The notes beneath the pieces were generated by a model. The model saw only the letters and a program-made list of their open reading frames with translations, did not search any database and was not told the DNA's origin. From positions 1,469,001-1,533,000 of the forward strand of contig NW_024881535.1 of the NCBI RefSeq assembly GCF_019059575.1: a DNA stretch of 64,000 nt, given 5' to 3'. This stretch comes from Amphibalanus amphitrite (Eukaryota > Arthropoda > Thecostraca > Balanomorpha > Balanidae). This document shows, piece by piece, positions 8,063 through 63,468 of the stretch; within the stretch, counting starts at the first letter, position 1; each line of letters begins with the position of its first letter. The position numbers and the translations under genes were made by a program.

Positions 8063-8312
8063 GAGGGGTGTTCACGGGCACCGCACACTGCTGCGTGCGG
8101 TGTGTGCGGTACGTCCAGCAGGCGTGGGGGTAGGGGATGGGTAGGCGGCTCTGACGTCACGGCTGCGTGCGGTGGACGGTCCGCTGTGGCCAGCCCCGAC
8201 CGGCCACAGCGGTCGCTGTGTGCGGTGACGGAAGGCTGACGTAGGGACGCAGTGGGCGGAGCTTCGAGGCTGTGTGCGGTCCGACCGCACACAGGGCCCG
8301 TGAACAGCCCTC
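8063..8312. mobile_element. 250-bp MITE with GAGGGnTGTTCACGGGC ends
   Basis: The left end (8063-8079) and the right end (8296-8312) are inverted copies of a 17-bp sequence with one mismatch. The interior is built from repeated tgcggt and ccgcacac words and holds a smaller GC-rich hairpin (about 8180-8214, ccgctgtggcc paired with ggccacagcgg). There is no coding capacity. The size and termini fit a non-autonomous DNA transposon. I could not find a clean target duplication, so the superfamily is open, although TGTTCAC-type ends recall PIF/Harbinger elements. Confidence 0.6.
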
Positions 8313-8635
8313 TGGTCTGACCCAGGGGGTAAGGTCAGGGGTGAACGCGAGTTCATGGTGAGGATATTGATGTCAGGAAAATGGAGCCCGGCTTTGGTCA
8401 ATATTGCGGAAATGAAACATAAAAGCCACGGTCAAGGTCGGTCCGCGCCTTATTGAAAACCGTGTTCAAAGCGGGTGGACTCGAAAGCATGTTGAAATCG
8501 CAGGCACTGAGACATGATTTGAGATGGACGTCGGTGAGCGTTTGTTGAATTTACCGACACTATTATGACACTATAGGCTCTAACAGCACTAGGACACTGC
8601 CGGTCAGCAATCAACCGCCGACAACAGATTGGATA

Positions 8636-8685
8636 TGACGTCACATGGCAATCCGGCGTCAGCGGCTGCATTGGATATGACGTCA
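8636..8685. promoter_or_regulatory. Two perfect CRE palindromes (TGACGTCA) in a short direct repeat
   Basis: TGACGTCA occurs at 8636-8643 and 8678-8685, each inside ttggatatgacgtcaca, so the two sites sit in a roughly 42-bp duplicated context. TGACGTCA is the full consensus for CREB/ATF bZIP dimers. Whether it is bound here is unknown. Confidence 0.4.
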
Positions 8686-8809
8686 CACCCAATCAGTCGT
8701 CCATTGCTGATTGCTCTTCCCGGCACCAATTGGGCTTTGGGAGAGGAGCCATGGCGCCTTAGGGACCGAAGGGTTTCATCCAATCACCCCTGCCGGTGAC
8801 AATGTGGGT

Positions 8810-9066
<257 letters not shown>

Positions 9067-11898: not shown

Positions 11899-14800
11899 GA
11901 ACAAAACAGTTAACAGGCTGTAAATGTGACGATAAACTATTTGTTTGATAAGCTGGCTGTTTTTTTAGCAATAGTGCTAAATTGTAGCGCATGTGATAGC
12001 ATATTCTTGGATTTTCTTGACTGCGTCTCTAGTCTACAACATTATTAATTTCATTTCACCACTTGACGCTGCTCATTATTTCTGGGTCACCATGTGATAC
12101 TCGGCTTAGCTGGTCGTTCATCACTTTCGGCGCCAAAGCAATGACTCCTATCAGTTCTGCTGACGTATGGCGCCTGCTGGGTACACAGCTCTTCTATTGA
12201 GACGATAGCCAGCACCCCAAGTTTTCAGAAACAACTAATGAGCCATTATAAGGCCCCCAGTGGATCGATGAAGCTACAGACCCGTCCCTTAGGCTTACAC
12301 CCAGACAGTAACAGCTGCACACAAACTGCAGACACTCGAAACAAACGACCAGGGGCTAGTCTGAACAAGGCGCTCCACCTGGAAGGAAATAAATGCCTGC
12401 GCATTGTTTTATAAGAGCTAAATACAGGGTAAAGGTCCAATTATTGTTCATTTGTTGTACTCGAAAGTTGACAGGATTATTACTGATGCGGTAAGCGATC
12501 ATAACAAAGAAACGTTCCCTCCTTTCAATGCCAACGTAAAATTAAGAGCTAATTAGTTGACCAATATTTGGTGAGTTTATTTTGCGGAGAAAGGTGCATT
12601 CAATACCTGGCGAAACGTCCCAAATACGTTGAGAAGTCGCACTGTCATGGCCTTCTCCCTATCTCTTCGGCCTTGTTTGTTATGCATCCTTGGGACGTCC
12701 TTTCGGCACCTCACACATCTCGCAGTCGTCAGCTGATTGATAGTGACGTCAGTTTTGGTCTGACCCCACTCAGATATACCGATCATACAGCCATGTTCGG
12801 ATATTGCTACACGTGTCGGGCTGTGTCCGCTTTTTGCCGTAAAATCGCCGACCGTGTACCGCGCTGGTGCATCTCTGACATCAATGCCCCGAGGGTAGCC
12901 CGTGCGCTCTGTCGGCTCACCAGTAAAGAGGCGTCAGATCGCCCGAGGGCGTGGTGGTTGTTGCTAACCTCTTGATGTGTGTCTGGGATGGTCAGCTGTT
13001 GAAGGGGCCCAGTTCAGTGGCCGGTGATGCCCTCTCGAGAAGCCATCTGTGCGTTTGTGATTGTGAGTGTGAGCACTGCTCAGTCCACCTTGTCAGTTCG
13101 GCGTCCGTGAAGTGCACGGTGAGGGTGGCCGTGACAGTTAGGCAGTGTTATGTGTGATAGGTATGTGTTTTCCTAGCAATAGCTTGTGCAATTTGGTGTA
13201 TGTACCTACTTCTGTGTTCACTGTTGATCGATATTTTCCTCAATTGGCTTTGTTTTTCAACGAATCACTGTGTTCACATACTATCATCACGACCGAAACC
13301 AATACACCCTTCCTCCAAATTGCCACTGATTGCCCTGTGATACCGCCCGATATGACTATTTTCCTGTTGTTCCCGTCAGGTTTTGGAGCAGAGTCCCACC
13401 GGCCGTTGGCGGGGTGTTATCATACAGAGTAGCAGCTACTCCACATCGCCCAGAGCTGGATACTTCCCCTCGAGCGCCGTCGTTCTTCTAGAGAGACCAG
13501 GTCAGTCCTGAGAGGGGAAGGTCAATGGAGTGTCGGGTTACCTGAAACCTGGTGAAGGTCCATTTGCAATGATATTGGGCATTGGGGGCATGTGACGGGT
13601 GTTATGTATCATGTATAGTTCACATGTGACTTCTGCAGTCAACGTTTGACTCCGTGGTCAGAGCTCGGCTACGGACAGCTTACTTGTCCACATTACAGGG
13701 GTCTAAAATCAGCCCGCCGGCCGCGTGACCGAAGTAAGAGGGATAATTTTGGTGGTTCAATAAGACCATGAAACCATTGGGTGTTCTTACATTAGCTAAG
13801 CGGATATCGGTGATGGCTTTCAAAACATCTGTTGGTAATGCAAGAGAATCAATCATTTTGCTATTTTGCTCGAGGGCTGTTTCCATTTGGAGCCGTATTT
13901 AGCTTATGCTCCCGGACAGGTATGAGGAAAACTCATCCCGATCAAATGATTTGAACATAGGGCATCAAACTACTTCAGCAACACAGCTGCAAATATATTC
14001 ACTCCATATACCACACAGTGACGTGATAGAAATGGTCTCAACTCCCAGCTAAATCACCATCTCTGCAACAAATTACACAATTGCTGCTCCAATACCGGAG
14101 CCTCCCTTCTTCTGAAGCTTCATACTGTGCTCGCTAGATGGCAAGGGCATGCAGCGGGCGATGCTTTGACGGAATATGGAGCCCTTGCCTTCTGCTCATT
14201 GCAACTCGGCACTGTTCATTAGGTACCACCGGCACCCCAGTCGGTGCACTGCGAGCCGCTACTTGGTGTAATGTTAATAGTTGCACAAGTGCAAAGCGGC
14301 TACATGAAACGGCTACAAGCGGTATATGACACGCGATGAAAGATTGCAGGACATCACTCGGGGAAATAAGGCATTAGGGAGTGTCGAGTCCGGTTTCCCG
14401 GAGAGCAAGAGAAGAGCACGATTATGGGACATACCTACACTCAGCGTCAGAGGACACATTTAGATAACGAGTAGCACTGCGGGTGATTTTCAATTCAGGG
14501 TCAGTGTTGCGCTTTGTGTCCCTATGCAAATGTCGTTCTCTTTGAGCTCGTGTTGACCCGGATCTATGAACTCCTGCTAGCTCCTGACTCAGCAATGACG
14601 TCACCGATGACCCATCCTCCTTTCTCTGTCCACTTCTCTCCACTCTGTCTCGCTGTGGTAAGCAGTATCGATCCCCATTGAGGCTGCGGGGCTGGACTGA
14701 CCCCCCCCCCCCCCATGATGCAGTGGTAGTGCCACAGATATTATAAAATCCAGCGGTGGATCCCAACAGGAGAGACAGTGGATTGATAACCGCCTGCCCA

Positions 14801-14950: not shown

Positions 14951-15210
14951 GGAAAACGCTTTTTAAATGGCCTCCTTACAATGAAATACCAAATGATGGG
15001 AGAATGAAATAATTATTGATGATTTCGACCACAGGTCATTATCAAAATAAGTCGGACAGAACTTTTGTAAGACTTCGTCTCGTCTTACAAAAGTCCTGTC
15101 TGGCTTAATTTGATAATGACCTGTGGTCGAAATCATCAATGCCTAATTATTTCAACCTCTGATCATTTGGTATTTCATTGTAAAGAGGCTATTTAAAAGA
15201 CGTTTTTTCT
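14951..15210. mobile_element. Roughly 260-bp hairpin MITE
   Basis: The left arm (about 14951-15072) and right arm (about 15085-15210) are inverted copies with scattered differences. They share gatgatttcgaccacaggtc, acaatgaaataccaaatgat and acttttgtaagac. The loop is only about ten bases (ttcgtctcg). There is no coding capacity and no clear target duplication. It is a foldback-type MITE or an inverted duplication. A MITE is preferred because the arms reach a common outer end (gaaaacg paired with cgttttt). Confidence 0.75.
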
Positions 15211-18908: not shown

Positions 18909-19242
<334 letters not shown>

Positions 19243-22466: not shown

Positions 22467-25400
22467 GCCCGCTGACCGGTCCGCCGCACCGGCCCCTTTC
22501 CCGCTCCCCTGTGTGTTTTGCACGGGGTGCTGAGGGAAGGGGAGGGTAGCGCAGGGGAGCGCAGGGGAGGGCTCCCCTGACCGCCAGCTGTTCGCCGTCC
22601 GTCAGCACGTGTGACGTCACGAGGGGAGGGGTGGAACCAGAGGGGGGGGGGTGGAGGGGGGCAGTGGTCAGTGGAAAGCACAGCATACTCGTATATGGGT
22701 GCAGCGGACGTATGACGTGTTATTGGACAATGGACGGCAACGGTATAGCAATGTTGAATGTTGACTTTACCTACCGTTGCCTCTGTATTTTATGAAGTTA
22801 GCCTTTTTGACCATTCAAAAAACTTATTTTCAATTCAAAATGTCATTAATAAATGGGCATGATATCGTTAATGTGCAGAAGGCGTTTCTTTTCGTTTGGC
22901 TTAGTCAATCGCCACTGTTACCAGGATTTTCTGTTGAAAGAATTAAAGTATGGTTATTGTTGACACAGCAGAGCGTGTGCGGTGCAAGCCAATCGTGTGC
23001 TCAAATCCCATTACACACGGGGATGTTCCATGCGCAAAGGACACCCAATTTGCCGTTCGTTTCACGCCAAAAGTGCTCACATATAATGCCTACGTAAACA
23101 TAATTAACAGCACGCACGTCGTACACTCACTATCTTCCAGTCCATTCTAATGAATAGGTACAGTGCATATTTGTCCCGCAAGGCGTGTGCCAATAAGTAA
23201 CATCCACATACACAGTTGGACTTTCACGCTAATTATAGTCACATGTTGCCTACACACGGCGATCATTATCAGTCTCGCACAATTGACGACACCTGTTCTG
23301 AAGATAAGGATCGCTCAGCGAATTATACACGGTGATGACGTAACTGGAGTACTATGTGACGTCACTGGAGGACTGGTAGACTGGGAGTGGCCCGGTGAAT
23401 GGATCGCTCGGCTAGGCGAGCACTGGACGGTTATTGAGGGAAATATCAACGATAGCCGTGGGAAAATCAGTCATGCAGTGTTGTTTTCCTGTTGTTCGAC
23501 TCATGAAAGCCAGTGCGTCAGTGATTCGTTCGGTTAGCAGGATGGATGAACTTACCATAAAAGGCTGTCGAGCAAAAGTTTGAGATCGTTTTTGTGGTAG
23601 CACGGTACACCGATGTCGTGTATTTCCAGTTCGCAGTTCAAGGGTGTATGAAAGATGGCAAAACTACTTTTAGTTTAGAGCCCTGCCTTAGAATTGGGCC
23701 ATTAAATATGTTTCACTTCTTCATTTGATGATTCATTTGTGAACACAATCCTTCCTTTATCAATGTAAGCGACCTGGCGCAATTCCTTTTTATCCGCAGT
23801 CCATTTTCATTTTAGCAGCTGAAGAAGAGCTGCAATTTAGACTTCATTGATTTGGGATTGTTACAGCTCTCTTTGTGAGCTACCAACCGAACTTCTTTTT
23901 GGTAAAGCTGCATCCGTGCTGCTCGAATCAAGGATTCATCATAGATGATCTCAAATTAAAAAAGAACTACACGGTTCTCGATATACGCTACTGCTTGACC
24001 CAGTTACAACTGTGTAAAAGACTGGATTTACAAATCAGTGATGATATCTGATGATTGTCCACCGTCCAAGCGATGTATGTAAGATGTAGATTTCTTTATC
24101 ACAGTCGTACGAGAAAGAACAAGAAAATGTCTCGACCGACACAATTGAGAAGGAAGGTTTGGCTTGAGGTGTGGCTATTTTTTCACCACGAACACAGATG
24201 TCAACTGAATGATACTGTACTGTTCCGCGTTTAATAACAGGAAATCCGGATCAAAAATTCGTGTTCTGAAGTCACTCATAAATTCCTTGTGACTCACTTA
24301 TCCATCACATTGTTCAAGAATTCAAATCGCCATAAATGGTTAGCACTTAGCAGTCGACTTTGTTGTATATCTTTCCTTTCAACTCAAATGTCTCCTGTCA
24401 TCAGACGATCATTAATCAAAGTTCCTCTGCTTTTTAATTTGTCAAACTCACGCAGTAAGCACGCAACCGACTGCGAACTCTTCCTCAAACCGCATGACAA
24501 TGACAAACTTGTGCGTCAGCAGCCTTACTGACCGACATTTGTCGGTGTAGACACCGTTTGTCGTGCAACGTTTTCAACACTGCGCTTCTGTCTAACTAGG
24601 CTCGCTGTTACTTTCTCATAACTTGTTCGGTTCATTAGTAGAACTTGAAGTTCATGTTTCTTATCTGCCTGCTCCTAATTCCTAAAGCTTCATCACAAAC
24701 GCCTGTTTTCACGCTTGTATGAAATGCTGCATGCTTCTGGCAATTTTGCACACATATACCCGGAATCGTTGGGCAATCTAAAAACAAAAACAAAAAAAAA
24801 CATCGAGATTGCAGCTTCTAACCTCAATAACCAATCCTGTATGTATGTTTAACACAGAGGCAGAGCAAACAATATAATTGCGCGGAGTGCTACTTTGCAA
24901 TACGAGGAAAGGAATAATTGACTTGTCTTGACGTAGGCTCGTCATGGTACTGAGTGTGCCGATAAGCAGTAACCTTATATTCTTTGCCGTGAACAGAAGG
25001 GGTTAATTGGCAATTTACCATGTTTGACGCAGAATAGACAGAAGGGGCACGTGTCATACTTGATTAGGTCGGAGTTACGGCATATTTGTGGCATCTTAGA
25101 GCAAATGTTAGCGTCTTAGATGCAAGCTTGTGGGGAGAGCTGGCCAGGTGACACAAGTGTCTGATGAGATGACGGAATGAAAGTTTGTGGTGAGACATCC
25201 TCTAAACTCGATTTTGTGAGGAACGACCTTGCTGAATTTGGCTTGGAAATGATTCCATGAGAGCTATATTAGTGGTGCTAGGCTTGTCATTTATGGGAAA
25301 GTAGAATTTAATGACTTCGATGGTTATTTTTAAATCAAATAGAAGTGTTGTAATTTAAGGAACGTTTCTATTTGAATTGAGCTTGGATTTTACGGATTTT

Positions 25401-27184: not shown

Positions 27185-28130
27185 CGGTCGAATGCGTAGT
27201 GCGTAGTACGGACGAGACCCTGCCCTTTAGCGAGCCGGATAAGGTCGTGACTGAGGGAGCGATCAAAAGCTGCCGATCAGTTGTCTTACGACCGTGTTTG
27301 GACGTTTTGACGTGTGACACACTGACACGGTGACACCTGACACGGACAGTGCGCGTGTGGTGAGTGTTGACGGCTCGTCCTCGAGCGCAGTGCCTGGACG
27401 GAATACCAATGTCGGGCGCCGGGAGCCGAATGACTATCCCGACGCAGCACCCGTTACAACTCCATTGTGCAATCACGTTGCGCACAACACATTTACTTGG
27501 CTCATGATTTAAATTCAGATTCGTGAGTTTGGGGTATTGATGATTGTAGGAAAAGATGTTTCACTTTTTGACATTGCACAATATACAGTGCACCGGGGTT
27601 CAGGGCTCGTCGGTTTCAGTTGCGGCGGAACACCTTCAATGAAGGGGGGCAACTGCCAACTTTTGGTCCCATTCTTTCCATGCAACGCCCAGAGGGCTAA
27701 TGTAAGGATACCAAAATCAAGGGGGCACGGTGCCCCGGTGCCCCCCCCCCCCCGTTCCGCCGGCGCCGCCTATGGTCGGTGTTAGCATTATTGAAAGCCG
27801 TTGGCCCGTTATAAACGTGTCTTGCCTCGATGGACGATGATATACCCGCTGATGGATCCAAAAGGCGGTCTTGGACGCTGCGGGGGATACCGCCAAAAAG
27901 TTTCTTTATAGTGTAAAAAGTTAGCGGATTTTTATTCCTTATACACTGCTGTGCAGTTTACAACGATTTTCCAAGTAAAAATCAAATTTTCGTTTTATTC
28001 TTGAAAAAAACGCAAATATTCGTCGATTTCGGGCGCTGCAGGCGGGGAGGGGGCATTTGGCTCAAATTGCCCCTGTGTCCGTCACGGCCAGTGAATAATG
28101 GATATGGCGATATGCACGTTTTTATGCCGA
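27185..28130. other. Mostly unannotated; possible 150-bp MITE near 27.62-27.77 kb
   Basis: gcggcggaac at about 27623 faces gttccgccggcgccgcc at about 27754, enclosing G- and C-homopolymer ends (ggggggc and C14). This could be a small MITE but lacks a duplication. Otherwise nothing is recognised. Confidence 0.4.
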
Positions 28131-28437
28131 TGTTAGAGTGAGTTTGCGAAATCTGTGGATCCGCGGATTTCCTAGGGAATCCGCGAAGTCCCTAGTGGCT
28201 CCGCGGATGAACACCAAGTCTAGTATATTCGCAGATAAACGGGCGGGGATCCGCGGATGAACAAGACTCTTCAGGATAACCGCGAACTCCCTGAAGAGTT
28301 GACGAGATCCGCGAACCACCCGGGGAATCCGCAGAGTAACGATTCATTCTAGTGAGTTTGTGAAGTTCCTATGCGTTTCATGCAGCTATCTTATGACAAG
28401 AATGCATGGCATATTGGGTAGATCATCTGCGACTTAA

Positions 28438-29862
28438 CCCTCGTCCGTATTATTGTTTTCTCAGATACTACCGCGTATGCGGAGAGGTGTCCGCTTGGGG
28501 GGAGGGGTCCGTTGGAACCCTTGCCGTGAGGCCCCTGATCGAGCTAGAGCTTTCGCGGAAAAATAGATTGCTTTCCGTGATTAGAAGAAGCCAATGCTAC
28601 CCAAACCATACGGCACCAGGCCATTGGTTGACATTCCAGGTCGATTCCAAATAGCATTTTGGACATCCTGTCTTTTTAATCGCCTTTGAGACGCGACAAC
28701 CTCAATTAATACCCCCTCTGCCCCCCCCCGAATCCGCCGCCCCTGGAATCGTTACCTACTCCGCGAATTCCAATAGCAACTGGGAAAACACCAATAGGTA
28801 CGGGCGAGAGTTAACCCTCGCCGGACCTATTGGTTTTCTACATACGCGCCGGCCGAGGGGGATGGGGTACGACCCCCCATCGCAGTTTCGCCCCTGAAGG
28901 AGCTAGAGCGTCGCGGAAAAAAATGAGCGTGTGCGCCGTTACGAGACGCAGAGATTGGTACCCGATTTTAAGGTCCTAGGTCAACCGGTGACCTCTGAGG
29001 TCAGGTCAAGTGCCTCAAGGTACGGTTCAGTTTTTGGTGAATAACTTCGCAAAAAAACGGCCGCAGAGCGCCGATTTTAACAACATCGTGTTTGCCTCGC
29101 TCAGGCGCGTCGAATGATATACTTTTTGTTCGGGTCAGGTCAACTTAGGGTGTTGACCTCAGGTCAAGGTCAGGTCAGCGCCCCAGGTCACGAAGCTGGT
29201 CGAAAGAGGTCATGTCGCATATCATTCGATTCGGCAGGTCTTCCTGAGTCCATTGGTGGCTTTCCCGACTCGCTAGCTCAATTTGATCGGGAGTTATTGA
29301 CGAAAAACTAATATGACCTTGATGACGTCATAAATGCGTCATAAATGACGTCACGCAAGGTCAACATTGCAAAAGTGACGCATCTAACCTTGCAAGGAGT
29401 GCATCAAATCACGATTCTGTGTGCTTGAGACAGTTGGAGATCGTTCCCGGCGCCAGAATAGCAGTTTTCATTTTTCCCCATTGACTTTGATAATGGTGAG
29501 GTCACGAAAATGACCTGACCTCATATGACCTTTAGTAAAAATCCGAGATATACAAGTTGTGAGACTCGTAATGGATACTAGATCCTGCAAGTTTCATTTC
29601 CCTCATCCATGTGGAAGCTCCTCTGGCAGTGAGGGCGTTGCGAAGTTGCGACATCTGAAGACCGTGCAGAGGTTCACTTATGACGTCATAGGTCAGTGAC
29701 CTGACCTGACCCGAAAATGCGGTTGGTGTCAAAAGATCCGGCTTGAATCAAAGGTCAGGTATGCCAAGTTTCAGCTTTCTATCGCCAGCGTGTTCGGAGC
29801 TATCGCGAAAAAAAACCTATGGGGGCGGCACCCGCCCTCCCCCCCCCCTCGGCCGGCGAGGG
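28438..29862 (+). mobile_element. TTAA-flanked AGGTCA-rich repeat (family Y), inserted in the hairpin
   Basis: One Y terminus, CCCTCG, follows TTAA at 28434. A second starts CCCTCGCCGG after TTAA at 28811-28814. The block ends with CCGGCGAGGG at 29853-29862. The better-preserved copy is 28815-29862 (1048 bp). The first 240 bp or so of Y also appear, diverged, at 28438-28680. Conserved internal landmarks are gagctagagc followed by tcgcggaaaaa, cccgattttaaggtc, and many AGGTCA/TGACCT words. The same sequence in reverse occurs at 62.70-63.47 kb. Termini and target recall piggyBac-type MITEs. No coding capacity is seen. Confidence 0.75.
29320..29360. promoter_or_regulatory. Paired CRE palindromes within repeat Y
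   Basis: Perfect TGACGTCA at 29333-29340 and 29346-29353 lie 13 bp apart, separated by a partial TGCGTCA. A third lies at 29681-29688. Y at 62.7-63.5 kb also carries TGACGTCA (62803 and 62959), so the element disperses these sites. Confidence 0.45.
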
Positions 29863-30246
29863 TTAGATCACAGACGATCTAGCCAATACGCCTTGCAATC
29901 TTGTCATAATATAGCTGCATGAAACGCATAGAAACTTCGCAAACTCACTAGAATGAATCGTTACTCCGCGGATTCCCCGGGTGGTTCGCGGATCTCGGCA
30001 ACTCTTCAGGGAGTTCGCGGTTATCCTGAAGAGTTTTGTTCATCCGCGGATCCCCGCCCGTTTATCCGCGAATATACTAGACTTGATGTTCATCCGCGGA
30101 GCCACTAGGAACTCCGTGGATTCCCTAGGGACTCCGAGGATCCACCGATTTCGCAAACTCACTCTAACACCGATAATAATCGATATAATTTGAAATTAAA
30201 ACAGTGCTGAGTGCAACTGCAGCGAATCAAATATCCTTGCGGACTC

Positions 30247-35580: not shown

Positions 35581-38500
35581 GTAAGTTTCCATTTTTGGGA
35601 TGTGGAGACATCCTCAGTATTGTTCCGCTCATTGCCAGTTTGTCGGAGTTTGCCAAGGCTGACGGGGTTTTTATTTAAATTCCGTGATTGTCCGTCTCCG
35701 TGACCATACCCTTGACGATCAACAAGGCTCAGAATGCCGTATTCCTGCATTAGATTTGCCGTCATCCATGGCCCTTCTCATCCTACAGCCAAAAACCATA
35801 CAAATGTCATGGACTCCTCATAGCTCTGTGTTCTGCTCAGTTGAACCCATAAAAGCCCCGGGTCCCAGCACTGCCCGCCTGCATTCCCGAGAACAAATAA
35901 AACGCTCAGCCGTCACGGTCGCGAACCAGTCGGTACAATTCGTGACGCGGTATCACGGCGTGCCGGCGTGACCGTGATACCGTGATACCGCGCCCAGAAG
36001 GCTACTCGGTAGCCAGAAGCACGTGCTGTGGCCGAGCCTCGGTACAATCACGACACGAACGCTGAGACTCGTGACAAACGGACTCGTGACGCTGTGCTGA
36101 CTTCGTGACTGGGGACTGGGGACTGGCACGAGGGGGACGGGTGAGCAGGTGACGTGAGGAGGTAGGTGAGATGCAGTCATGAGCCTGAGAGCGACGGGGG
36201 GGGGGGGCTGAGGCGTTACAGTTGGGCATTGGACAGGCAAGTCCTCAGATAGGTCAATGCAAACTTTTATGCAACTTCCCCCGTCCTCGCGTTTTCCTCG
36301 TGCCGCATCTTCATGTTCCAGCGTTGTGTCCTGTCATGGCCCGCCAGAGTCCCACACTCCACGTCTGGTGGGCTGGGGCGGCCCGCGCGTGACTTTACCC
36401 ACGTCGGTAACACGACGTGTCCACCATTTATAACTCGTCGCTGTATGTTGGACGTCGCAATGAGACCCTCTGTCGGCCGCTTAGGTCCGTTTTGGCCCGC
36501 TTAGGCTCTCTCAGGCGGCCGGGGTCGTATTTAGTGTTGCTGAGGTCTACTTAGTAGGCAGGCTGCAGCCGGAGTTCAGTGGTAGTCAAGGCAAAGAACG
36601 TGTTTTACCGTCCCGATGGCTATCGTTCACCACATCAAGAGGCGAGTGTGACGACGACGACATTCGGGCGACCTGCCGCCGGTGACGTCACTTGTTTGGA
36701 CGGGTGACGTCACGTGTTTGGAGCGGTGACATGCCGATTTGCGTTCCAGTTTACCTGTTACCTGGGTGACACGCTTGTAACGTTTGTGAAGGGGGGGGGG
36801 GGGGGTGCTGCATTCCACAAACATCCGTCTAACTGGAGAAAGTGATACTGGTTTGTACACGCTCCGGCCAGATGAATATTCATCTTCCACGGCTAGTTGA
36901 TTGTTTCCGACTGTTTTTACACGCTGTGACGCTGTCGTGTCTGGAGAGAGTGACCATTCATAATCAGTGCTAGTGAGCGCCGAGTAATGGCTCGTAATTT
37001 CTCACAGACAGCTGAATTAAAATAATTTACATCCCGGTGAGTAACGGCCCTTATTTGGCGTTTTTCGTCATTCTGCGGGCACCATTCACAACTCGGAGCC
37101 TCTGTGGCCATTCACTGGGTTTCGCGACCCTGACCCGCCCAGTGGCGCCTTGGCCCACCGTGGGGCGCCTATTGTAGCCGCCTCTTTTCTGCGCCTCCTG
37201 CGCCACACTCCGGGGCACCCGGTCCTTTCACCCCCGCCCCGCCGCGCTGGTCAATCATCCCACCGCCGCCGCCACTCGGGCTTTTCAACGCGCCGCCACA
37301 AAAGAACGATAAATCCCGACCCGGACAGACGGATGGCTCTGTTGGTCCACTCGGACACAGTTTAGATCCAATCGAGCCGCCTAATGACGCCCCGGGCTAT
37401 CCCGATCGCTCCCCAGATCGTCGTTACGATCATTCCGATCACGCTGAATCGCTTTCGGCTCGCTTCCGAATCGCCACCGAATCGGCGCTGGATCGGCGCT
37501 GAATTTCTCCCCGATTTGCGGCTTTGATTGGTGAGACCAATCTAACACGTGCAGTGGGCTCGATCGGCCACTTTCCGCCTGGTTTTCGTCTTCGACAAAG
37601 GCGCCTCACGGTCACGTACGGGCTCGCACGACCGCCGCGTTTTGAGTGCTTCTCTCCAGAAGCCAGATGGCGGCTCTGTTCGATTGCTAGGCTCGTTGGC
37701 TGGCCGGCCCGCTCGGTCGGTCGTTTGGGCGGTCGCTGCCCCCTCGGCCGCTCCCCTTCCCTGTTCCCGGTACCCCTCTGCCCCCCCCTCCCCACAGCCA
37801 CTGCCACTGCCACCGGTTACAGGCAGCACAGCCGGCGTCTCCCCCCCCCAAATGACTACCCGGGTCCCCTGCCCCGCCCCGCGACCCCTCCCCTCCGACC
37901 CCTACCCCACCGGTACCGGCAGCCGCTCAGGCGTGTCTCCGCTCCCGTGTGCAAATTGTAGAGCGGGTGCTGACGGCTGGCGCTGGCTGATCCTAAAGTG
38001 AGATAGGGACGAATGTAGGATTTGTTTTTATTTCTAAAATGGCACCTAAGTGCGCCTTGTGCCATAATTCATTTCTTTGTAGCATTATGAAAGGAATGGC
38101 CGCAGCATTTTGACTCATGAGCTTTTGGGATAATGTGGGTCTTATTCAGGTGTTTTGGTCAGCCTAATCCGGATACAATTAGTCAGTTCGTCGCTTCTCT
38201 AGTCGTCCGACTGCTTATGTCCAAAACACCACTTACCTCAGGTCACCCTGGTATTACCGACGACATGACCCTGCATGACCTCATTTGACCTGTCTGAACC
38301 CGTTAAAAAGACCGGCACCGTTTGTTGGCACCGTGCCAGCCGAAATGACTGTAAGTAGATCGCGGACCGGGGCCTCCTGACAGTGCTGCTCGTCACAACA
38401 CAACACTCTGTGTGCTTTGTGTATGACGTAACTGGGACGGCAAAGGGTAGATGACAGGGAAGGTCGAAAAGGTGGGGGCCTGACAAGCGACGGATGATTA

Positions 38501-41500
38501 GCCGCATTGTATTCACAATCGGTCTGAATGAACGGGTCGTTTTTTGGTGGTGGCGTCCCCCTTTGTATGAACCCTGCGTCACTCAGTGGGGTCGAAAGAC
38601 CAGCTGGTTAGGAAGCTCTGGTGATTTAATGGTGATAGAGCAAAGGGGTGTGTAATGGGGAGGAACAGTGACTGTTTCTACTCAGCTAGACGGTTTTAGT
38701 GGGTTTTGCTGTGGCAGGACGGGGCACTAACCCTTTCAAAGCATGGAATAAGCTGTGGTTAGTGTAATCTGGTATGATTCGAGGTGCCTACCCGGCTGAG
38801 TCAGTCTGAGACTAATTAATCCGAGCGAAGCGACGAATTAAATCATAGCTCTGAACCTCACTAAGCCTCCATGTCCCGCACAAACCGCTGTTCCATTTTG
38901 ACGTGGCGTTTGACCTTTGACCTGAATGACTGAGGCTCTGAACTTTTGGTCGGTTTGATAAGCTATCGGTATATGTGCTGGGCCAACGGCCTTATGTTGG
39001 TTCCAGATGGCTCTAGTTCTATGTTTGAAGAGCAGGAGTTCTTATTTTCATTTTGTTATTTTGTCCTGCGCCGATATACCTGTCGTTTCTGTAAAAGAGA
39101 ACTTTCTTGACCTACTCATGGCAGGCTAATTCTGTCCCAAACTCATCGGGCTCCTCTGCCGTTTGACCTCTCCCCCTCCCCTCCCATGCGACCAGCCCAC
39201 CGCCGTCCAAGTTGGTCCATCCAGCCGGCCGTCTGTCGGTGAACCATCAGACCATTGGACCGAGCAGAGGAACCATTAGGTGCTGCTCGGCGGTCGGACC
39301 GCCCCGACGGCTGGGGCGGTCTGTGGGAACTTCGCCGCTTTGGCGGCAGCGGAGGCGGCGGCGGCGGGGTTAGCTTCCGTTCTCTTCGGGTGCTCGCACC
39401 GTGCGAAGAGCGATTGTGGGAGTGGTTCTCAGGCCACTCCGCCCTCTTGACGGTGGTCAGAGCCGCTGGACAAACTTTGTGGCTGCCAGACTGGTTGTTG
39501 GGTCCAGCTGATTGACATTAATGGACAATCTCCGACGCAATAATTGCATCTGAATGGTAGAAAATGTTTCGACAGTTGCGTTGTCGTTCATTCCTGACGT
39601 CCTCAGGAACAGGCTCGTGCCTCGAAATAAGATGACTAAGTGTGGCCCAGATTCAAGCTGAACATGATTAACAGGCTGCCTTTGCCTGCTCTGCTACATT
39701 TTAATCACTCAAGCCTTCATCTTGATAGGAAACGCTTCGGCTGATAATTGCGCTTTCAGCGAAACGGCCCGCATTAGCAGCGTTCGTTTTCCTCAGCTCT
39801 ACTTTCCTAGGGCAATCAGCGCCACTTGTGTGACCCGCTCGGCACATTAGAGTTCGTTCGAGCACCGAACTTTTCCTGTGCTTTCACTCCGGTGTCAGGG
39901 AACCAAGTAACACAGAGCCGGGATCAGGGGCTTACCAACCGCTAGTTGGATGCGAGGCATGCTCTTCTTCCTATAAATATATCCTGTTTGCGACTGACCT
40001 CCCTGCTCACTATATCCCAATCTCAGCCGCCTCGTTCTGCCCCACCCCTTTGACCCGACCTGACCGTTCCTCTATCGCCCGGGGCGCCGGCCACCGCCGC
40101 GGGGCGGCTGATAGCGCTATGGCGTGTCCGAGCCCAGTCGCGCCGGGCGGTCTGCGACCCACATCGGACACTGGTGACGTCACTGGATCGGTCTAGTCTC
40201 TGGTGACGTGCGTCACTGGGTGCTAGTGATGTCATTGATCTACAGGGATCTTTGTGATTTTCACAGAGGAGGTGCTTCTTTTACCATGAGTTCATCTTCA
40301 TATGTCTAAGCAACTGGTGGCAAAGCGGATTCTTTTACTGCTCTGCTGGTAGATATCCATGTTTGGTGCTTTGATGTCTCCACTCCATAGGATTCCTGAG
40401 CGATATCATAGTGATTGATGTGAAAATGATGTCATCAGAATGCTGTGACGTTGAGTTCCTGCTAACCAACCGTTGTTATGCTGCCTTGTGACGTTGTCAT
40501 GGAGGTAGGCTCCAAACGCGAGCTGTTCGATGTTCATGTCACATTTGTTTGATGGATGTCGCAGCAGTCGATGGTTAACCGCCACTGACAGTCAGCTGAC
40601 GACCATTTGATGACGTCATTCGTCAGCTGACGGGCGTACAGTGGTGTGCCTTGTCACATGTCTCGTTCGACGGCTCAATATGTCGCCTGAAATGTGACAG
40701 AACGCTTCTTCGTCGAAGTTATTAATTGGGTTTGGCATCTTTCGAGTCTTAAACACCCAGTTTTCCACACTCTCTGGCAAGTTCTGAAATTTTGCGAAGT
40801 TTTTAGATAAGCTTTAATTTGTTTCTGACAAAAATGTTGAATCCAGGCTAATGAGAAACTAATGAGAAATGCCTGGCGTGCTAGAGACAATTCTTTGCAC
40901 TTCTTCCTTGCATTTCGCTTGAACATTTTAACATTCATACCGACAGCTGGTGTCGGATTTCTCCAGCATCATCACTCACTAGTACCACGTGCCTGGGCCC
41001 GTCTCGGCATTTTTGATCATTTATCGCTTGTCGAACACGCCTGTCTTCCGTCCGCAGGAACTGTTCGGAAGTCTGACACGAGAACCGGTATTGGTGGACT
41101 TCTGGTGTCTGTTTGTGTGATGTAGCACGTCAAGGCGCGACAGGGACCGTTTCTCTTCCCTTTATCTTTCCGTCGTGGCGCACTTCGCCAGTCCCTCGCC
41201 TTCCCATTGTCTTCGCTGCGCCAGAAGTGCCATCCGTAGTCTTGCTGGACGGTGGAATGTGTTGCACTACGGTGAAATGTCTTGCGGGCAATGAAGGCTT
41301 TGCATGCGAAAAATATCAGTTCCGTGATGCTTAGTTCAACCTCAGCCTAGCAATGTCACGAGATTGATTTCCGTTCGTGAAGGCGACCATCTCAAACCTC
41401 AGAGCTTACGAAGCTAGTCCCAGCTCTGTGAAGCTGTCACTGGCGACTGGTGTACGCAGCGCGGAAAGAACAGCGCGTGCACTGTCATCGGTCGCTCCCC

Positions 41501-43702: not shown

Positions 43703-46700
43703 CGTGCAACAAACTTCCTCCAGTATAGCTCCAGTAGCTGATCCACTCTTTTGCCGAAAACAAATCCGACAAGCTCATTTTTGTTTTCCTTATTTTGATG
43801 ACAGTTTTACGGGCCCAAAGCCCGTCACCAATGTAAGGCGCGTGTTGGTTGTGTGCTCCCTACGAATTCCAGAGATCTGTCCGTGAACAAGATGCGCGTC
43901 AAAGCACCGGAAAGGAATGTCTACAGCCCTCTCTGCGGGCGAACAGAGGCGGTTCTTTGGGGTGGAACAACCGGTGTCTGTGCTTTTAGGACCATCGATT
44001 GCTCTGGTCCCTCGCCCCTCTCCTCCATCCCAGTCCGTCCCGTCCCTCCCAGACCCATCTCCAGGCCGGCCGTATAATGTATGGAGGAGTGGGACCCATC
44101 GGGGTGCGTATAAATGGCAGGGGAGCGTTCCAGACCCCTCTCAAGGCTGGCTCCCTGCCGGCTGTAAAAAGACTGCGTGGGAAGGAACGCCACACTGCCG
44201 CGCGGCCGTGGAAGTAAGTGAACAATGCGACACATTCGGTTTGCGATTGAATCGGAAAGCGCTGCTGATGCCTGAAGTGCGGTTCATAGGATACCCATTC
44301 GTCACAGCGTTCCTCTAGACGGCAGGGTGGACCCAGTCTAGCAAATGTCGTGGTATACAAACGGGGGTGGGGGCGGGTGTTGACGGGCGGGAGAGACAAC
44401 AATACTGTCCCAATATGGCGTACCATTATTGCCGCACGACTCAGCCTCACCCTACTAATGGCATGTGTACATCGTGCATGAATACACGCGACAGTAACGA
44501 GGCGACAGTTCGTCTCGTACTGTTTGCCAGACATTTTTGTCATCGTCCTGACAACGCGGTGGCTGGGAGCTGGGGACTTTGTCGGGTAGCTGGGAGAGTT
44601 CCGTTACCTAGTAATGTGCCGTCCGGCCGTCTGTGAGGATATTATTAACGACAAAAAGAGCGACAAAAAGGGCCATTCCGCGTACCGCGCTTCATCAGAA
44701 GCTAACGAGGTGGAATCGGTGAGCTTCGGACCTTTTGGATTCCTTCTTAGACCCGAGTTTTTCTCCTGGTGACCCGACATCCCACATAGGTCAGAGCTAA
44801 CGAACCGCTTATATGGGTTCCTGGATGTTCTCTGCTTCTGCTAACAACCTGTTGCCTAGGGTTTGTGGCGAATTACTATCGTGGAATACGGTTATCTCCT
44901 GTATCCATGCTGCAAGCTATGTAGAGTTTGTCTCAGACACGTTGTCATGAGTTATGACAGCGTGATTATGACTACCTGACTACTTGACGATAAGCTTACT
45001 GCCCGCTTGGCGCTCCGCCTCTCCCGAACTCCATCCCGACTCTTCCTGACTCAGTTTTTGACTCGCCTGATTGCCTGAGCCGCTTCGACTAGCCTCTGCG
45101 GGATACCTTACGGGAATCTCGAGCAGGCAATCCTTTACATATAGCCGCTGATGCATAAAAGCGTCTTCAGACGCCGCGGCGGGGCGGCGGCGGCGGCGGC
45201 AGCAGACACTGGTTTTTGTGTGAGGTCAGTGGCAGGAAGAGGTGTGGGCATTGTGGGGAACCGCTTCCTGGCGCCTTCCCGGGGATTGTATGAGGCCCTG
45301 ATTGCTGCATTCATGATGTAAGAGTTATGTGTGGGTGGGTGTGATGAAGGAGGCTTTGTAAGGGAGCGGTAGGCGCGGTCGGAAGACCCGCTCGATGGCT
45401 AATGAACCGGGCAAACATCCCACTATTTGGCCTGTCAAACTTTGGGTGGATTACTGCGCTCGCGTGCGTGGAAAGGTCACACTTCATTTTCACCGCACCA
45501 ACCAGCTATTTCGCCACATTAACAGACTCGCGAAGCGCCGTTATCAGGAAATCCAACTTTGACGTAATAAGACGTTTGGCGAAGTTGGCCCGCTGCGCTA
45601 TCTGCTCTTTGATTGCAAGTGATGGATTACCTTTCATCACACGTACTACTTACTCAGTGGTGAAAAGCATTGCTTGTGGCGAGGAAAGCTCTCATGCCGT
45701 GCTCTCGTTGCGGATGTTGATAGTTCCGTGGATTGTTCCGCTCCTCATCGCCCGCTCCACTGTGCCGGTGGACCGCTCTCACAAGCCGCCGGGGTCAGTG
45801 GTCCCGTCTGCGCGGCGGTAACAGACAGGTGGCTGCCTGGCGTCACCGTGGGCCGATCGGTGACGTCATCGGAGGCAATTAGGGCCGCGCGGCGCCTTTG
45901 AGGGGGACGGAACGACTTGTGACGTCATACCTGGACAGGTATGGCGGAGAAGGGTAGGTGGATAGAATGGAAGGTTGTGACGTCAGGGTGAAGAACTGAG
46001 CCATGGTTGGCTGACGGAAGGGAACAATGAGAATGCATGATGCTGTGAATGGTCAATTGTGTGTTTGGGATGATAGGATTTGTAATTTTGGCTCGATTTG
46101 TTTGACTTTGATTGTTCAAAATACTCATAATTCTGCTGTTTTCGTCTCTTGGCCTGCTTGCAACAGTGAAATTTCCGTGATTATGTTAGCAATTTAGTAA
46201 GCTGTCACTGTAATTGTATTTTCATAATGTGATTTCATCGCATGAAGATAAATTGCGTGATAAACAAATTAGTCATGGAGCTCTGCATTCGGTATTCAAG
46301 TCCATTTCTTTTGTTATATGAACTAACCACAACTATTCACATCCTAATTATGACATCCTATATCATGTTCATTATCGCGTGAGGGCTATTTTAGACATCA
46401 TGAAGACAGGATTGTTTCAAATTTTGCGCTATCTTTTAGCATTGGTCGCTATAAATGTACTCCAATAGCTATTTTTATATCCAAGGGATGTGCCTGTATT
46501 CGTATTCTCAATCCGCACTCCGTCCGCCTATTGTGAACAAAGTGGTCAGGGTCAATGCCAGCTCCATCAATCTGATAGAGACGTATCACGTATGCGGTAA
46601 CGTTGTTTGGACCGTGTCAGGTTACACCGTTCGCGGTGGCCACAGGGCTATTGTGTTGCCCGGTTGCGCAACGTGATTGTTTCTTTTGCTCGCCTCTGCA

Positions 46701-49435: not shown

Positions 49436-49469
<34 letters not shown>

Positions 49470-53141: not shown

Positions 53142-53676
53142 CGTTTTTAGAATTTGGAGAATCTTTTGAGGGATGCCCCTCGCAACGTCCAAGACCGCCT
53201 TTCTGGATTCGCCAGTAGTTGCTGGAATGGTGTTAGGCTACTTCATATCCATGAATACCCCAATAAATGTGAATATAACATATTATGCACCATGTTCAAC
53301 ACTCTCGCTGGCGCGGATTGAGGCCTCATAGACGAGCCGTTGGTTCTTGCTTTATAACTCGCGTTAGCGGCAACGGATTGCAACGAAATTTTCAGGATCT
53401 CAAGTTTCAACAATTTTCCACGTACCATGCAAATTTCGTGACCATGACCCCAATGACCTGTGACCTGTGACCTCTCCCTCAAGGCCATATCAACTTGCGA
53501 CACAACTTACGACTGCTATTTCAAATTCGTAAGTTGTGTCGTAAATCAGGCACTTTGCGATAGACTTTACTTCTTAAGTAACGCTGCTCATCAATTGATC
53601 CCTCCAAAAACGACTTACTACACAACTTGCGACACGTCGCAGCTGCGACGAGGCTTACGACGCTCTGGATCCCCCC

Positions 53677-56159
53677 AGCCACAGAGTGACGTCATCTCAA
53701 CCTTCCCAGAGTTGCTAGCCAACCAACCACGCAGAACAAAGAACTACGAGTGTGTGGCAGCGCGTTTTCCGTAAAAGGTGCTCGCTGCGTGGGGTTGGCG
53801 GTCACGGAAAATGTGTGCCATGTAGCGGCCGGAGTTTGGGTGTGCTGTGCAGTCTGGTTTGGGTTTAGATGGCTATCGGGTCCGGGTGGTATGTCCGTGG
53901 GAGGATGCTCGAGGTCTGAGCGACTGGTTTAAAGGCAGACGTGTTGATTTTTCAGATCGTTTGCACATAATGTGCGTGAGATCATCCGTGCTCTCTTACT
54001 AGAACTATTAGTTCTAGTCATTAACCTTATGTAAAAAGTCAAGATGTGAATCAAACCAGTAGATTGCAATAGGTCCTCATCCCTTCGATTTTCCCATCAC
54101 CTTGTCCTTCGCCGTTTAGTTCGTGTCATCACTCATCGCACCACAGGGCTGCATCCATAGTGGGCACTGGATATGACCTCAGTGTCTACCTCTGTGTATT
54201 GTGCAACAGCGCTGCAACAGTGCAACTGCAGGCCTCGCGAACGAACTCGACTGACCGCAGTCTGACTTGGGCCGCATAGACTGGTTTGAGCACAGGGATG
54301 GGAGGGGTTGGGGAGAGGAATGATGGTGCTAGAGCAGTGAGAGGAGCAAGTGCAGTCACATGTCTTGTCTGGTAGGTGCAAATTTGGTGCCTACGTTTTG
54401 GGCCGTTGCTGAGTGTGTTACTGACTGCTAAAAGCTGGGGGCTGCTGACTGCTGATGCTATACGTCGCTGATGATGATGGCAGATGATGCACTAGCTGAC
54501 TGACATTCCTTGATGACGTAGGGAATGTCTGATGTTGTTGTTGACACGGCAATCACCCGCCAGCCCTAGCGCTACCGACCGGATGTTGGCAGTGTCGGGC
54601 CTAGTTATATGCACAGCCGCTGGACATCTTTATTTAGTTATCGTTAGCTGGTACACTAATGGGCGTCATTTGCTGCGCTACTGACGTACCCCTGGGTTGT
54701 GAGGTATGGACGTCATCATCATTAGCGACTGCTTGACGATAATGTCCGCATCCTGGTCCAGCACAATAGGCAGGACTGCTTCGGCATGAATGTCACAGCC
54801 ACTGCACTTTTCATCGCCGCTCGAACGCCGACCTTCATGCATTGCAGGACCGGTGTTCAGTTTAGTATGCTAGCCATGACCCTTAGACGCCAGAATGACC
54901 CCTTGCCAGGAACTGGTCCCCGCGCCGGTCGTTGGTGCCCTCTTTGTGTCGCGCCGTCCTGGCGAGTGGGTGTTAACTCGGGCCCTCTATTGACGTGTAT
55001 CGACGGGTTGGCTGCTACCGGCTCCCCTGCCGCTGTAGTTGCCGGATTAGGCGGGTTATGTGTCTGCCATTGAGCGGCCAGGGCAGACATGGCGTCCAGA
55101 CACGCGGTCTGGAGGGGTGAGGGGAGGGACGGGGCAAACGGCCCACCGGATAGGGGATATGGACAGAAATGAGGGGCTCTGATGCGGGTACCGTGTTAAA
55201 TGATGACGTTCAAAAGAAGGACGGGGGATAGTCACGGAACGAGTAGACGTAGACGCATGGCTGTAGACAAAGTTCGCAAAAACCGAAAGAGACTGATATA
55301 CCTATCACCTCTTGAGGTATTAATTTAGAGCCCAAGCAAACATTTCCTTTTGCGTGATTGATTGATACGTTATTCTATGCTCGAATAAGGGAACGAAACT
55401 AAGAGTCTCCAGAATCAGAACAGACGTCATCCCACGCAGTTTTCTTGCCGCAGCTGTGACACAGGCTGATCCACATGTGGATGATCACTTGAGCGCCAGC
55501 TGAGTGATGACCTTCCGTTCCCTGTCTGTGTCTGTCGGCCAACTTTGGCTGCCCCAAGGTCGTGAAGGTGGCGACCTGCCCGCAGTTGGGGCGGACAGAT
55601 GTCCACGGCGTAACCGGCTCACTTGTGTCAGTTGAGGACAGCTGTTGAGCTGTCAGCTTATGATGCCTGTCAGATGATGACAGGAGTCAGCTGATAATTA
55701 ATGGCAAAGTCAGCTGTTGGCTGAAGTCAGCTGCTGGCTGATGATAGGAGTAAGCTGATGACGGCCACCGGCGGTGCGAAAGCCCAATCGCGGCGCTAGC
55801 TTTTTGTTAACTTTTTATTATTCTGCATTGTAAAAGAGATTCTAATTGGTCTTTGTAATGGTTGATGATGATGATGATATTTATTGAACAGAAAGTACTG
55901 GAACAAAAGAGTAAATCGGAGATTGGTGCAGAAGCTCAAGGCTTAATTCGGGGCACCTCTCTCCGTGCACACTCATTCACAAACATACAAGCTTACGTGC
56001 AGACTCGTACCTATGCGTTACACTATACACATGCATACAAACACACACTCTTAATCACTTGTACTGGCACGCGCATGCGTAACAATTCTTGGCGTATCAG
56101 GTAATTGTTGTGTACTATTATTAGCGTCACGTGCATACATGCACTCACACACGCGCGCG

Positions 56160-60500: not shown

Positions 60501-62690
60501 GTGACGTGTTCTGCGGACACTGGACTGTCTGGAAGGAGAGTGGGTTTGACCGTGGTGCTGAGGGCACTTGTCGGGTTCGGTGGGTATTCGCTGGTCACTC
60601 GGAGGCCACTCTATCGGCTCCCATGGCCACTCGATGCGGACGATGGCGATTGACGCTATTCTGAGAGGCCGGCTGGATAGCCCTGATTGGCCTGCAAGAT
60701 GGATCGAAGCCACATGAGAACTACGCCAATAATGCTGTTCTATTCGCGACCCGAAAACACTTGAGACGGCAAATAATGACGCTCAATCGCAAAGGCAATC
60801 TCATCCTTTCTTGATGTTCTCAATTACCCAACACGATTGGCGTTGACCTTCGATTGAAGCTGACCCGGAGGTCGTAGCTGACGAAGCCCAGAGTGGCTAC
60901 GCCCGTTCGGTCTAACGGAGAGGCCTGGGGGAGTCATTTGGCCGACGTGTCGGAATACATATGCCAGGCGTCCTGTCCAAGCTGAATTGAGTAGCCCCAG
61001 GTGGCGGTGGAAAGCCCTCCCACATACTGAAGCCTGGTTTTCTCAGCTGTCTCACACTGAGCTATGTAGATATCGGTACTCACTTTCCCAACGCACCTCC
61101 ATGGACATTGTCCACCGCCTTGCCTATCGTCCCCTACATCTGGAATTACCTGTCAGCGGAATTGGTTTGGTATGGACTTGTGCGACGTGTACCGAGGGGA
61201 GCCTCGCTGCTTTCCGGAAGTGTCAGCCGCAGCTGTTGACGTGCATGGGGAGCCAAGTGAGCTGTCAGAGACAGAGAGTCGTGGGCGCATTCGGTATTGA
61301 CGGCGATGGGGAGGAACGCAGAGGCCGTGGTCGCCGTGGGCGAACTTGTCGACACGCAGTCCGCTATTGCTACGTCACTAGAACGTGTGTCGTAAATCGG
61401 GGCTACAAGGTATGCGGCTTATTATTGGTATGATGAATGGGATGTACTTGCCTGAATGTAGTGGTAATTTAGAATCTCGTTTCCTTTTTATCCATTCATG
61501 TGCGGTGGTCTTTGAATGGGACGATGCAATTATGCTAACCAAGGTGAACAAACCTTTCTCCTTCAGTGATTTCTAGCTTCCCTTTCATTCATTCTAAGCA
61601 GTTACGACAGCGGCAATTTTCCATTGAAATGACCATTCTCTGTTCAAATGAGGACACGTAGCAAACACATCTGTTGCGCCGTTTTACAATCTGCAAAATG
61701 TTTTACTTGTATCCATCACGCCGTCCGGTGCAACTGCTCCCACGGCTCTCCATTCCAACTCGCCTCCTCTGGGCAGTGGGTCATTGTACTCACACGGGGC
61801 GACGTCTTTGTTCTTGGCTGTTCGCCCGTTCAGTTTCCTTAGTTTCGGATCTGCAATCGGGTCCAATCCTTCGATGTTTGTATTTGGCTGAAAAAAGACG
61901 TGTCGGCATGTTGACATGATAACAGCTGAAAGGTTCGCCTAGCAGTATATCTAAACATTTTCTTTTCTGAATCGCTCTTTGGCTGCACGGCTCCAGGGCT
62001 CAGGAGATAACTCGCCTCCGACCAGTGGAACTGGACACCACCATTTCACTCAGCGGCCGCCCGAACTGCAATCTCGGGTCTCCATGGCTGCCCCCATATA
62101 CGAAAATGATGGCCGCCATTTTCGGCCGCTGGCGCGTGCATTTTTCAGCAGGCCACCTCCGCCGGGAAGATTGCTGACCGCAGCGAATGTCCAGCGACCG
62201 GGCGGCGCGGCTAGGCGGTCCTCTGCTCCGCTGGCCTCCTCCCGCTGGCGACAAGAACCGATAGAGCACTAATGGAGCTACTCCCTCTCCGCCCCCGCCC
62301 ATCGCTCGGCCGTGCATCTCTCAGCAGCGGGGCGGCGAAACAAAGGCCCGAAAGGCGACTGGCTCGCGTCGCTCGCGAGGCTGGCGTCGCTGGCGTCGTG
62401 TCGCGTCGCTTTTGTCCACAGTCGATGATGGACGACTCGGCGGAAGTTGTCCGCCCACTTTTTGTCTCGTGCAGTGTGTTGACTGTGTGTCTCGGCTCCT
62501 CGTCTGCAGCTGCTCCCGCCAGACCTGGTCGACCTGGGACACGTTTCTCACCAGCCCGCTCGCCGGTCGTTTGGTGGTTAATTGCCGTGTCGGAGTGGTG
62601 TTTCTAAGGGTGGTTCGTCACCCCTGCACACTGGTCGGAAACGCTCCAGCGAGAGGCCAGCGGCCTTTCCGCAAAAGTTTTTTGCTTGTT
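57508..62690. other. Unannotated sequence
   Basis: No gene recognised. The 198-codon frame at 57491-58087 is overlapped by antisense frames of similar length and looks like a product of GC-rich composition. The frame at 60987-61433 (148 codons) also lacks any domain. GC-rich block at 57720-57970. Confidence 0.45.
61980..62600. promoter_or_regulatory. CpG-rich block with YY1-like GCCGCCATTTT
   Basis: CpG is dense from about 62040 to 62420 (gctcgcgtcgctcgcgaggc). GATGGCCGCCATTTTCGG at 62110-62127 contains the GCCGCCAT core bound by YY1/Pho-type factors near many housekeeping starts. No TATA box, splice donor or conserved first exon could be paired with it. Confidence 0.25.
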
Positions 62691-62699
62691 ATTCCACAA

Positions 62700-63468
62700 C
62701 TAGTGAAACAAACTTCATAAAACTTTGCATACCTTCTCTGTCATATGTAAGCTATCATTTGGATGTCAAGCACTAAATATATGACGTGAATCTGTTAAGT
62801 TATGACGTCATAATTGAGTATAATACAGGATCTAGCACCACTTTAAGTCAACAAGGGAAATTGGGAGCTGCTATTCGGGCACCGGGAATGGTTTCATGCA
62901 CTCCTTGCAAGGTCCAGTGCTTCACTTTAGCATTGTTGACTTTGCGTGACGCCATTTATGACGTCACTAAGGCCATATAAGTTTTTCGTCAATAACTCCT
63001 GATCAGATGGAGCTAGAGAGTCGGGAAAGCCACCATTGGACTCAGGAAGACCTGCCGAATCGAATGATATGCGATATGACCTCCTTCAACCATTTTCGTG
63101 ACCTGAGGGGCTCCGACCTGACCTTGACCCGAGGTTAACACCTTAAGTTGACTTCACCCGAACACCAAGTATAGCATTCGACGCGCCTGAGCTAGGCAAA
63201 CACGATGATGCCAAAATCGCGGCAGTGCGGCCATTTTTGGCAAAGTAATTAACCTAAAACCGAGCCCGTGCCTTGTGGCACTTACCTGACCTAAGAGGTC
63301 ACTGGCTGACCTAAGACCTTAAAATCGGGTAGTACCTAATTGTTGCGTCTTATAACGGCACACAAGCTCTTTTTTCCGCGAGGCTCTAGCTCAATTAGAG
63401 GCGAAACGGCGAGGGAGTTGTACCAACCCTCCGCGGTCAATATAGAAAACCAATCGGTCCGGCCAGGG
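62700..63468 (-). mobile_element. Second copy of TTAA-type repeat Y (5'-end copy)
   Basis: On the minus strand it starts CCCTGGCCGG next to TTAA (63469-63472) and follows the same order of landmarks as 28815-29800: ttggttttctatat, gagctagagcctcgcggaaa, cccgattttaaggtc, caggcgcgtcgaatg, attcgattcggcaggtcttc, ttgcaaggagtgcatg. By eye the two are about 75-80% identical. Similarity fades near 62700, so the far terminus is missing. It carries perfect TGACGTCA at 62803 and 62959. Confidence 0.85.

Follow-up and report, generated by a model that had tools for sequence, protein, structure and literature searches.

Transposon-borne sites for CREB/ATF or AP-1 are known, as are composite promoters that combine NF-Y (CCAAT) with the cAMP-response element (CRE). 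The CRE itself, TGACGTCA, is described, as far as the accessible portions of the papers go, as the preferred site of CREB, with a central CpG that is critical for strong binding and, once methylated, decays to TGATGTCA (PMC1796609); it is also one of the few 8-mers that, in a comparison of three multicellular groups, ranked among the top conserved predictions for every group (PMC551538). For the human genome, the available part of one study gives 10,355 unmasked copies, and the CRE that localizes in proximal promoters appears there to be 10 bp long, GTGACGTCAC (PMC3464117). Here we examined a 64,000-nucleotide stretch of Amphibalanus amphitrite DNA (contig NW_024881535.1 of assembly GCF_019059575.1, positions 1,469,001 to 1,533,000), hereafter the window, in which exact TGACGTCA is found 20 times; the human count (PMC3464117) amounts to approximately 0.2 per 64 kb, if that genome is taken as 3.1 Gb. 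The site type is a textbook one, and it is the density that is unusual. A limited search of open-access papers, covering titles and the beginnings of abstracts, retrieved no report of a genome with a comparable excess, and the string RTGACGTCAY, to which we return below, had no match in an open-access literature search.

The preliminary description of this DNA had put the number of copies at about twenty, and exactly 20 were counted; 19 of the 20 coordinates given there were also exact, the remaining one, 29333, being a misreading of 29323. This number exceeds chance more than tenfold. Dinucleotide shuffling (100 shuffles) yielded a mean of 1.31 copies and a maximum of 7, and the Markov expectations were 1.11 (order-1) and 1.73 (order-2). 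Among all 256 palindromes of 8 bp, which average 1.2 copies, TGACGTCA indeed ranks first, the runners-up being GCACGTGC (12 copies) and TCAGCTGA (10 copies); the comparison with a Markov background and with all 8-mer palindromes, which had been suggested earlier as a check, thus upheld the enrichment in the window. When tandem arrays and second copies were masked, which takes out five of the 20 sites, the remaining 15 stood against 2.41 expected under an order-3 Markov model (P = 4.3e-8), GCACGTGC fell to 4 and TCAGCTGA to 8, and among all 8-mers TGACGTCA was fifth, behind three C-rich words and ACCTGACC. Merging of neighboring sites left 15 places at a distance of 100 bp (P = 6e-10), ten at 1 kb (P = 1.4e-5) and nine at 2 kb (P = 8e-5), each against 1.73 expected; with the five sites in or at a mobile element, here called Y, also dropped, 11 places remained at 100 bp (P = 2e-6) and eight at 1 kb (P = 4e-4). 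The excess in the window is real, specific and strong.

The window varies in GC content from 43 to 62% across 4-kb bins, CpG is barely depleted (observed/expected 0.93), and ACGT overall is near expectation (228 vs 211). The other 63 CG-centered palindromes together number 79 against 59 expected (66 once masked), with a mild rise of CCGCGCGG (5), TCTCGAGA (5) and CGGCGCCG (4), each against about 0.9, and none of the three sister words TGNCGNCA is found more than once, so that composition offers no explanation for TGACGTCA. The preliminary description had named two CpG palindromes, TGCCGGCA and TGTCGACA, as examples that might prove equally frequent; they were found in 0 and 1 copies, respectively, and a further control, TGGCGCCA, in 1, which argues against a compositional excess and led us to reject a word raised by CpG or mutation bias. 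In the masked window, the next-best CG-centered palindromes do not exceed 5, against 15 for TGACGTCA. Of the 15 other ACGT-centered palindromes, only GCACGTGC is conspicuous (12 unmasked, 4 masked), the rest numbering 0-3 each. An explanation by composition or chance, also in the sense of TGAC/GTCA words or CpG palindromes being frequent in general, could draw on the total for the 63 palindromes and on the TGAC/GTCA words, which are raised overall (803 vs 550 expected), with contributions from element Y and from a minisatellite at 47.6-48.6 kb, and are still raised without these two (681 vs ~519). However, the zero-spacing inverted pair is found 20 times against 2.5 expected from the half-sites actually observed, and 15 times against 1.9 without the satellite and Y. 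Judged by half-site counts in this way, GCACGTGC ranks above TGACGTCA (10.4-fold vs 7.9-fold), yet eight of its 12 copies come from a single tandem array of 128-bp units (4.5 copies, 21396-21973). Since shuffles, Markov and palindrome counts, half-site counts and CG-palindrome totals all contradict chance and composition, we count this explanation as already refuted, with a negligible residual probability.

The excess is specific to one spacing of the two half-sites. TGAC and GTCA are paired 20 times at zero spacing and 1-7 times at each spacing from 1 to 12 (15 and 1-5 times, respectively, without the satellite and Y), and the AP-1 word TGACTCA is unenriched (10 vs 9.2 expected), for which reason AP-1 sites were dropped as the identity of the motif. 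With the two sides read in the same orientation, the base adjoining the core is a purine in 37 of the 40 flanks and T in none, and 17 of the 20 sites have a purine on both outer flanks; the corresponding proportion is 51% for other TGAC words (n = 763) and 47% for other TGACGT words (n = 47). The bias persists without the Y sites (27/30), and also when one site is kept per 100-bp cluster and the copy at 62959 is dropped (26/28, P = 2e-6). The first flanking bases on left and right are complementary at only nine of the 20 sites, and those at positions 2-12 at 3-11 of 20; the extension is thus a two-sided preference and not a longer inverted repeat, and a longer palindrome or hairpin was discarded as the general unit. 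At outer positions 5 and 6 of all 20 sites, there is a weak preference for A and C (20/40 each), which may be due to chance.

Generalized in its outer purine (R) and pyrimidine (Y), the human promoter form GTGACGTCAC is one case of a 10-bp RTGACGTCAY. TGACGTCA and its flanks fit such a CREB/ATF-type bZIP site, and not a hairpin or a general mutation bias; the bZIP reading put forward in the preliminary description is thereby supported by the exactness of the motif, the specificity of its spacing and the purine/pyrimidine flanks. Two other suggestions made there fared less well. A motif disliked by mutation or repair is contradicted by sister CpG palindromes that are not raised and by a flank preference that exceeds the palindrome, and an unknown factor is unnecessary, because the CRE localizing in human promoters shares the same 10-bp form, according to the available part of PMC3464117. 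The likeness to the canonical CRE, bound by CREB/ATF bZIP dimers, extends to the exact 8-bp core, the outer bases and the occurrence in clusters; the promoter link belongs to the human case. With regard to clusters, the earlier observation of groups at 8.6, 36.7 and 45.9 kb was borne out, as five inter-site gaps are shorter than 65 bp against 0.39 expected (P ~1e-4).

Overall, the explanation that we favor, with somewhat better than even confidence, is that the 20 palindromes are for the most part genuine cAMP-response elements, i.e., CREB/ATF-type bZIP sites, of which a minority arrived via mobile element Y. Such CREs would have been kept or spread in a genome that lost few CpGs. Both TGAC half-sites of a palindrome would be contacted by a bZIP dimer, which favors a purine on the outer side of either half and once bound would recruit activators or repressors; clustered CREs could cooperate as promoter or enhancer modules, for example at 8.6 kb beside CCAAT boxes. 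Three to five sites would have come with Y, a carrier of several CREs and many AGGTCA. The sequence itself shows the excess, the exactness of the word, its specific spacing, the preferred flanks, the clusters and the presence of some sites in Y, whereas binding by CREB/ATF, regulatory activity and selection as the cause are what we infer.

Several points weigh against this explanation. The window was chosen because of its TGACGTCA excess. A Pfam scan of 50 open frames (three from a retroelement, together with 47 out of 60 that a coding score of our own had listed) identified no host gene close to a site, and credible matches were confined to the retroelement frames; five weak matches of other frames (E 0.003-0.09) were all below cut-offs and were disregarded. 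One place per 4-6 kb is also dense for promoter sites alone, and the co-occurrence with CCAAT is limited to one locus, at 8.6 kb. The one-mismatch neighbors of TGACGTCA are themselves raised approximately twofold: their 12 classes total 52 against 25.6 expected (the exact word, at 20 against 1.1, exceeds expectation far more strongly, in keeping with genuine CREs), or 40 against 23.2 without TGAGGTCA, which contains AGGTCA. Lastly, the CREs of sea squirt, fly and worm have no bias to transcription starts, according to the accessible part of a survey (PMC1796609). It is to be noted that, with a start-site bias described there in vertebrates only, CREs away from starts would not be odd in an invertebrate-type genome.

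The mobile contribution can be judged from element Y, which has a full copy and a second, partial one (Table 1). The full copy has no open frame of at least 130 residues. When the two copies are aligned, one of the sites at 29323 and 29346 has an exact counterpart at 62959 in the second copy, and the counterpart of the other is TGGCGTCA, with an 11-bp gap between them. Three of the 20 sites (29323, 29346 and 62959) thus lie in DNA alignable between both copies. The preliminary description had assigned five sites to this repeat, which is roughly right: 29681 is indeed inside the element in addition to these three, and 62803 falls just past the alignable edge. Its statement that one repeat does not explain the excess holds, given that a distant copy with which the site can be aligned exists in the window for these three alone, and a single dispersed repeat was rejected as the cause on the same ground. 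Y resembles the known transposon-borne CREB/ATF or AP-1 sites in having two copies and several CREs; it differs in being assigned to no named family. A search for related loci with two exact patterns from Y in the collections viral_contigs and genome_contigs returned none, as expected for collections that are not of animal genomes.

It is conceivable, though on balance unlikely, that most sites are remnants of several CRE-bearing transposable-element families, such that the density would reflect the load of mobile elements and not host regulation. The three to five sites in or at Y, which bears several, are in keeping with this, as is the richness of the window in repeats and inverted repeats, and the one-mismatch excess (40 vs 23) would fit a decay of old copies by roughly 10% by our estimate. 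However, for 15 of the sites no match covering the site was found within the window at E 1e-3, the exceptions being the three alignable Y sites and the pair at 8636/8678, whose two members match one another as arms of a local palindrome. Moreover, none of 11 sites tested, a set that excluded 8636/8678 and further cluster members, was enclosed by inverted repeats within 2 kb, and many unrelated families with an exact bZIP word would themselves need a functional reason. This alternative overlaps the explanation by genuine CREs, which grants a mobile origin for Y. A rather less probable one is that the excess is local to a selected window, made up of one or two regulatory loci, Y and short tandem duplication, with an ordinary density genome-wide. 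Short duplications are indeed present (36679-36730, and the 18 bp that 8636 and 8678 have in common), and TGACGTCA was picked by a reader from many words in the window; on the other hand, the sites fall at ten places that lie over 1 kb from one another and range from 8 to 63 kb, and the probabilities given above for the places merged at 1 kb, with and without Y, speak against a purely local origin. It is compatible with genuine CREs as well, and our degrees of confidence overlap, because these first two alternatives can partly hold alongside the favored explanation.

Alternatively, the palindrome could be one that is repeated many times because a non-regulatory process maintains it, be it DNA modification, repair, replication or an architectural protein. 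A precedent is HIP1 of cyanobacteria, likewise one 8-bp palindrome in great excess, and the accessible part of PMC4390886 documents that such cases occur in bacteria. A single palindrome ahead of all others and widely dispersed would agree with such a process. In contrast to HIP1, the DNA here is of eukaryote type, and the outer purine preference and the clustering match a known bZIP transcription factor site; also, GCACGTGC alone stands out from the 15 other ACGT-centered palindromes. We regard this process as very improbable. Returning to genuine CREs, a far-reaching form of that explanation would be a genome-wide CRE field, about an order of magnitude above expectation and partly spread by mobile elements with AGGTCA nuclear-receptor-type half-sites, in which CREB/ATF would be a general genome-organizing or transposon-controlling factor beyond promoters; this we hold to be quite doubtful. 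If the density is genome-wide, the lineage would offer a natural case for testing the growth of a bZIP network and its seeding by mobile elements, in a setting where CpG decay does not erase sites as in vertebrates; if not, the window would hold an ordinary CRE set that happened to be picked.

Table 1 Exact TGACGTCA sites and associated elements, in window coordinates
Feature	Position	Strand	Remarks
TGACGTCA, flanks c/c	8152..8159		GC-rich surroundings, 61% over ~500 bp
Promoter-like block with TGACGTCA at 8636 and 8678	8606..8800		Putative promoter role
TGACGTCA	12744..12751		TCAGCTGA begins 15 bp upstream, at 12729
TGACGTCA	14596..14603		Exact word
TGACGTCA abutting CACGTG E-box word (cacgtgTGACGTCAc)	22612..22619		
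TGACGTCA	23357..23364		Exact word
Element Y	28128..30172		316-nt inverted repeats at ends, 92% complementary; TGACGTCA at 29323, 29346, 29681
Two TGACGTCA in element Y	29323..29353		Starts 23 bp apart (29323, 29346)
TGACGTCA in element Y	29681..29688		Not within the stretch that aligns with the second copy
22-bp unit, 2.4 copies	36679..36730		Two units with TGACGTCA (36683, 36705)
TGACGTCA	40175..40182		Exact word
TGACGTCA at 40611	40592..40630		Flanked by TCAGCTGA at 40592 and 40623
Three TGACGTCA at 59- and 58-bp spacing	45861..45985		45861, 45920, 45978; flanks not alignable
TGACGTCA	53687..53694		A Ty3/gypsy-like element lies upstream, its 3' LTR-like repeat 0.5 kb away (LTR, long terminal repeat)
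TGACGTCA	62803..62810		Just past the point where the second Y copy ceases to align
Second, partial Y copy	62845..63331	-	84% identical over a 235-bp stretch; TGACGTCA at 62959

The pair of sites at 8.6 kb is part of an imperfect 111-bp palindrome (8606-8715) that aligns to itself locally. Six CCAAT/ATTGG boxes (8628, 8670, 8689, 8726, 8729 and 8780) surround the two CREs, and six in 200 bp was the maximum among the 200-bp windows scanned. By its sequence, the block at 8606-8800 resembles a promoter or an enhancer, which may be bidirectional. It shares with NF-Y plus CRE composite promoters the two CREs and six CCAAT boxes, with the difference that here one of approximately 15 places has them; across all sites, the association of CCAAT with TGACGTCA is weak (P = 0.04-0.08), too weak to establish a general one. 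A search for 6-mers around 14 places gave just weak words (GCTAGC, GCTGAC and CAGCTG), from which nothing was drawn. The block is followed by one of two (TC)n tracts, at 8809-9063 (255 bp) and 18908-19241 (334 bp), of which the first begins approximately 125 bp past the second CRE. TCAGCTGA is found within 20 bp of TGACGTCA at two places, beside the site at 12744 and to either side of that at 40611, and ACCTGACC is itself one of the 8-mers in greatest excess once the window is masked.

Nothing was found in the window by Rfam at gathering thresholds, or by ARAGORN in bacterial mode. The minisatellite mentioned above, with units of ~71 bp repeated 14.5 times, occupies 47623-48633, and a retroelement lies immediately downstream of it. 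AGGTCA occurs 135 times in the window, with 42 copies within 47600-48650 and 27 within Y and its second copy, and it forms 13 direct pairs at 3-bp spacing over the window, a layout that we take to be the DR3 of nuclear-receptor sites. The retroelement (48641-53148) is a Ty3/gypsy-like retrotransposon with frames in 48822-52846 and LTR-like repeats at 48641-48860 and 52929-53148. Its long frame matched DUF7047, RVT_1, Integrase_H2C2 and RVT_3 above the Pfam cut-offs, and below them rve, three protease models and, in a neighboring frame, a zinc knuckle; in this pol frame, DUF7047 sits between the reverse transcriptase and RNase H-like matches. The LTR-like repeats, of 220 nt each, are 99% identical, which suggests that the retroelement was inserted recently. 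Taken by themselves, this element, the repeats and the CpG content would point to an invertebrate animal as the host. Finally, foldback or inverted-repeat-bounded stretches are found at 4277-5294, 14953-15206, 25474-25744, 26304-27157 and 56266-57507, which are possibly non-autonomous transposons.

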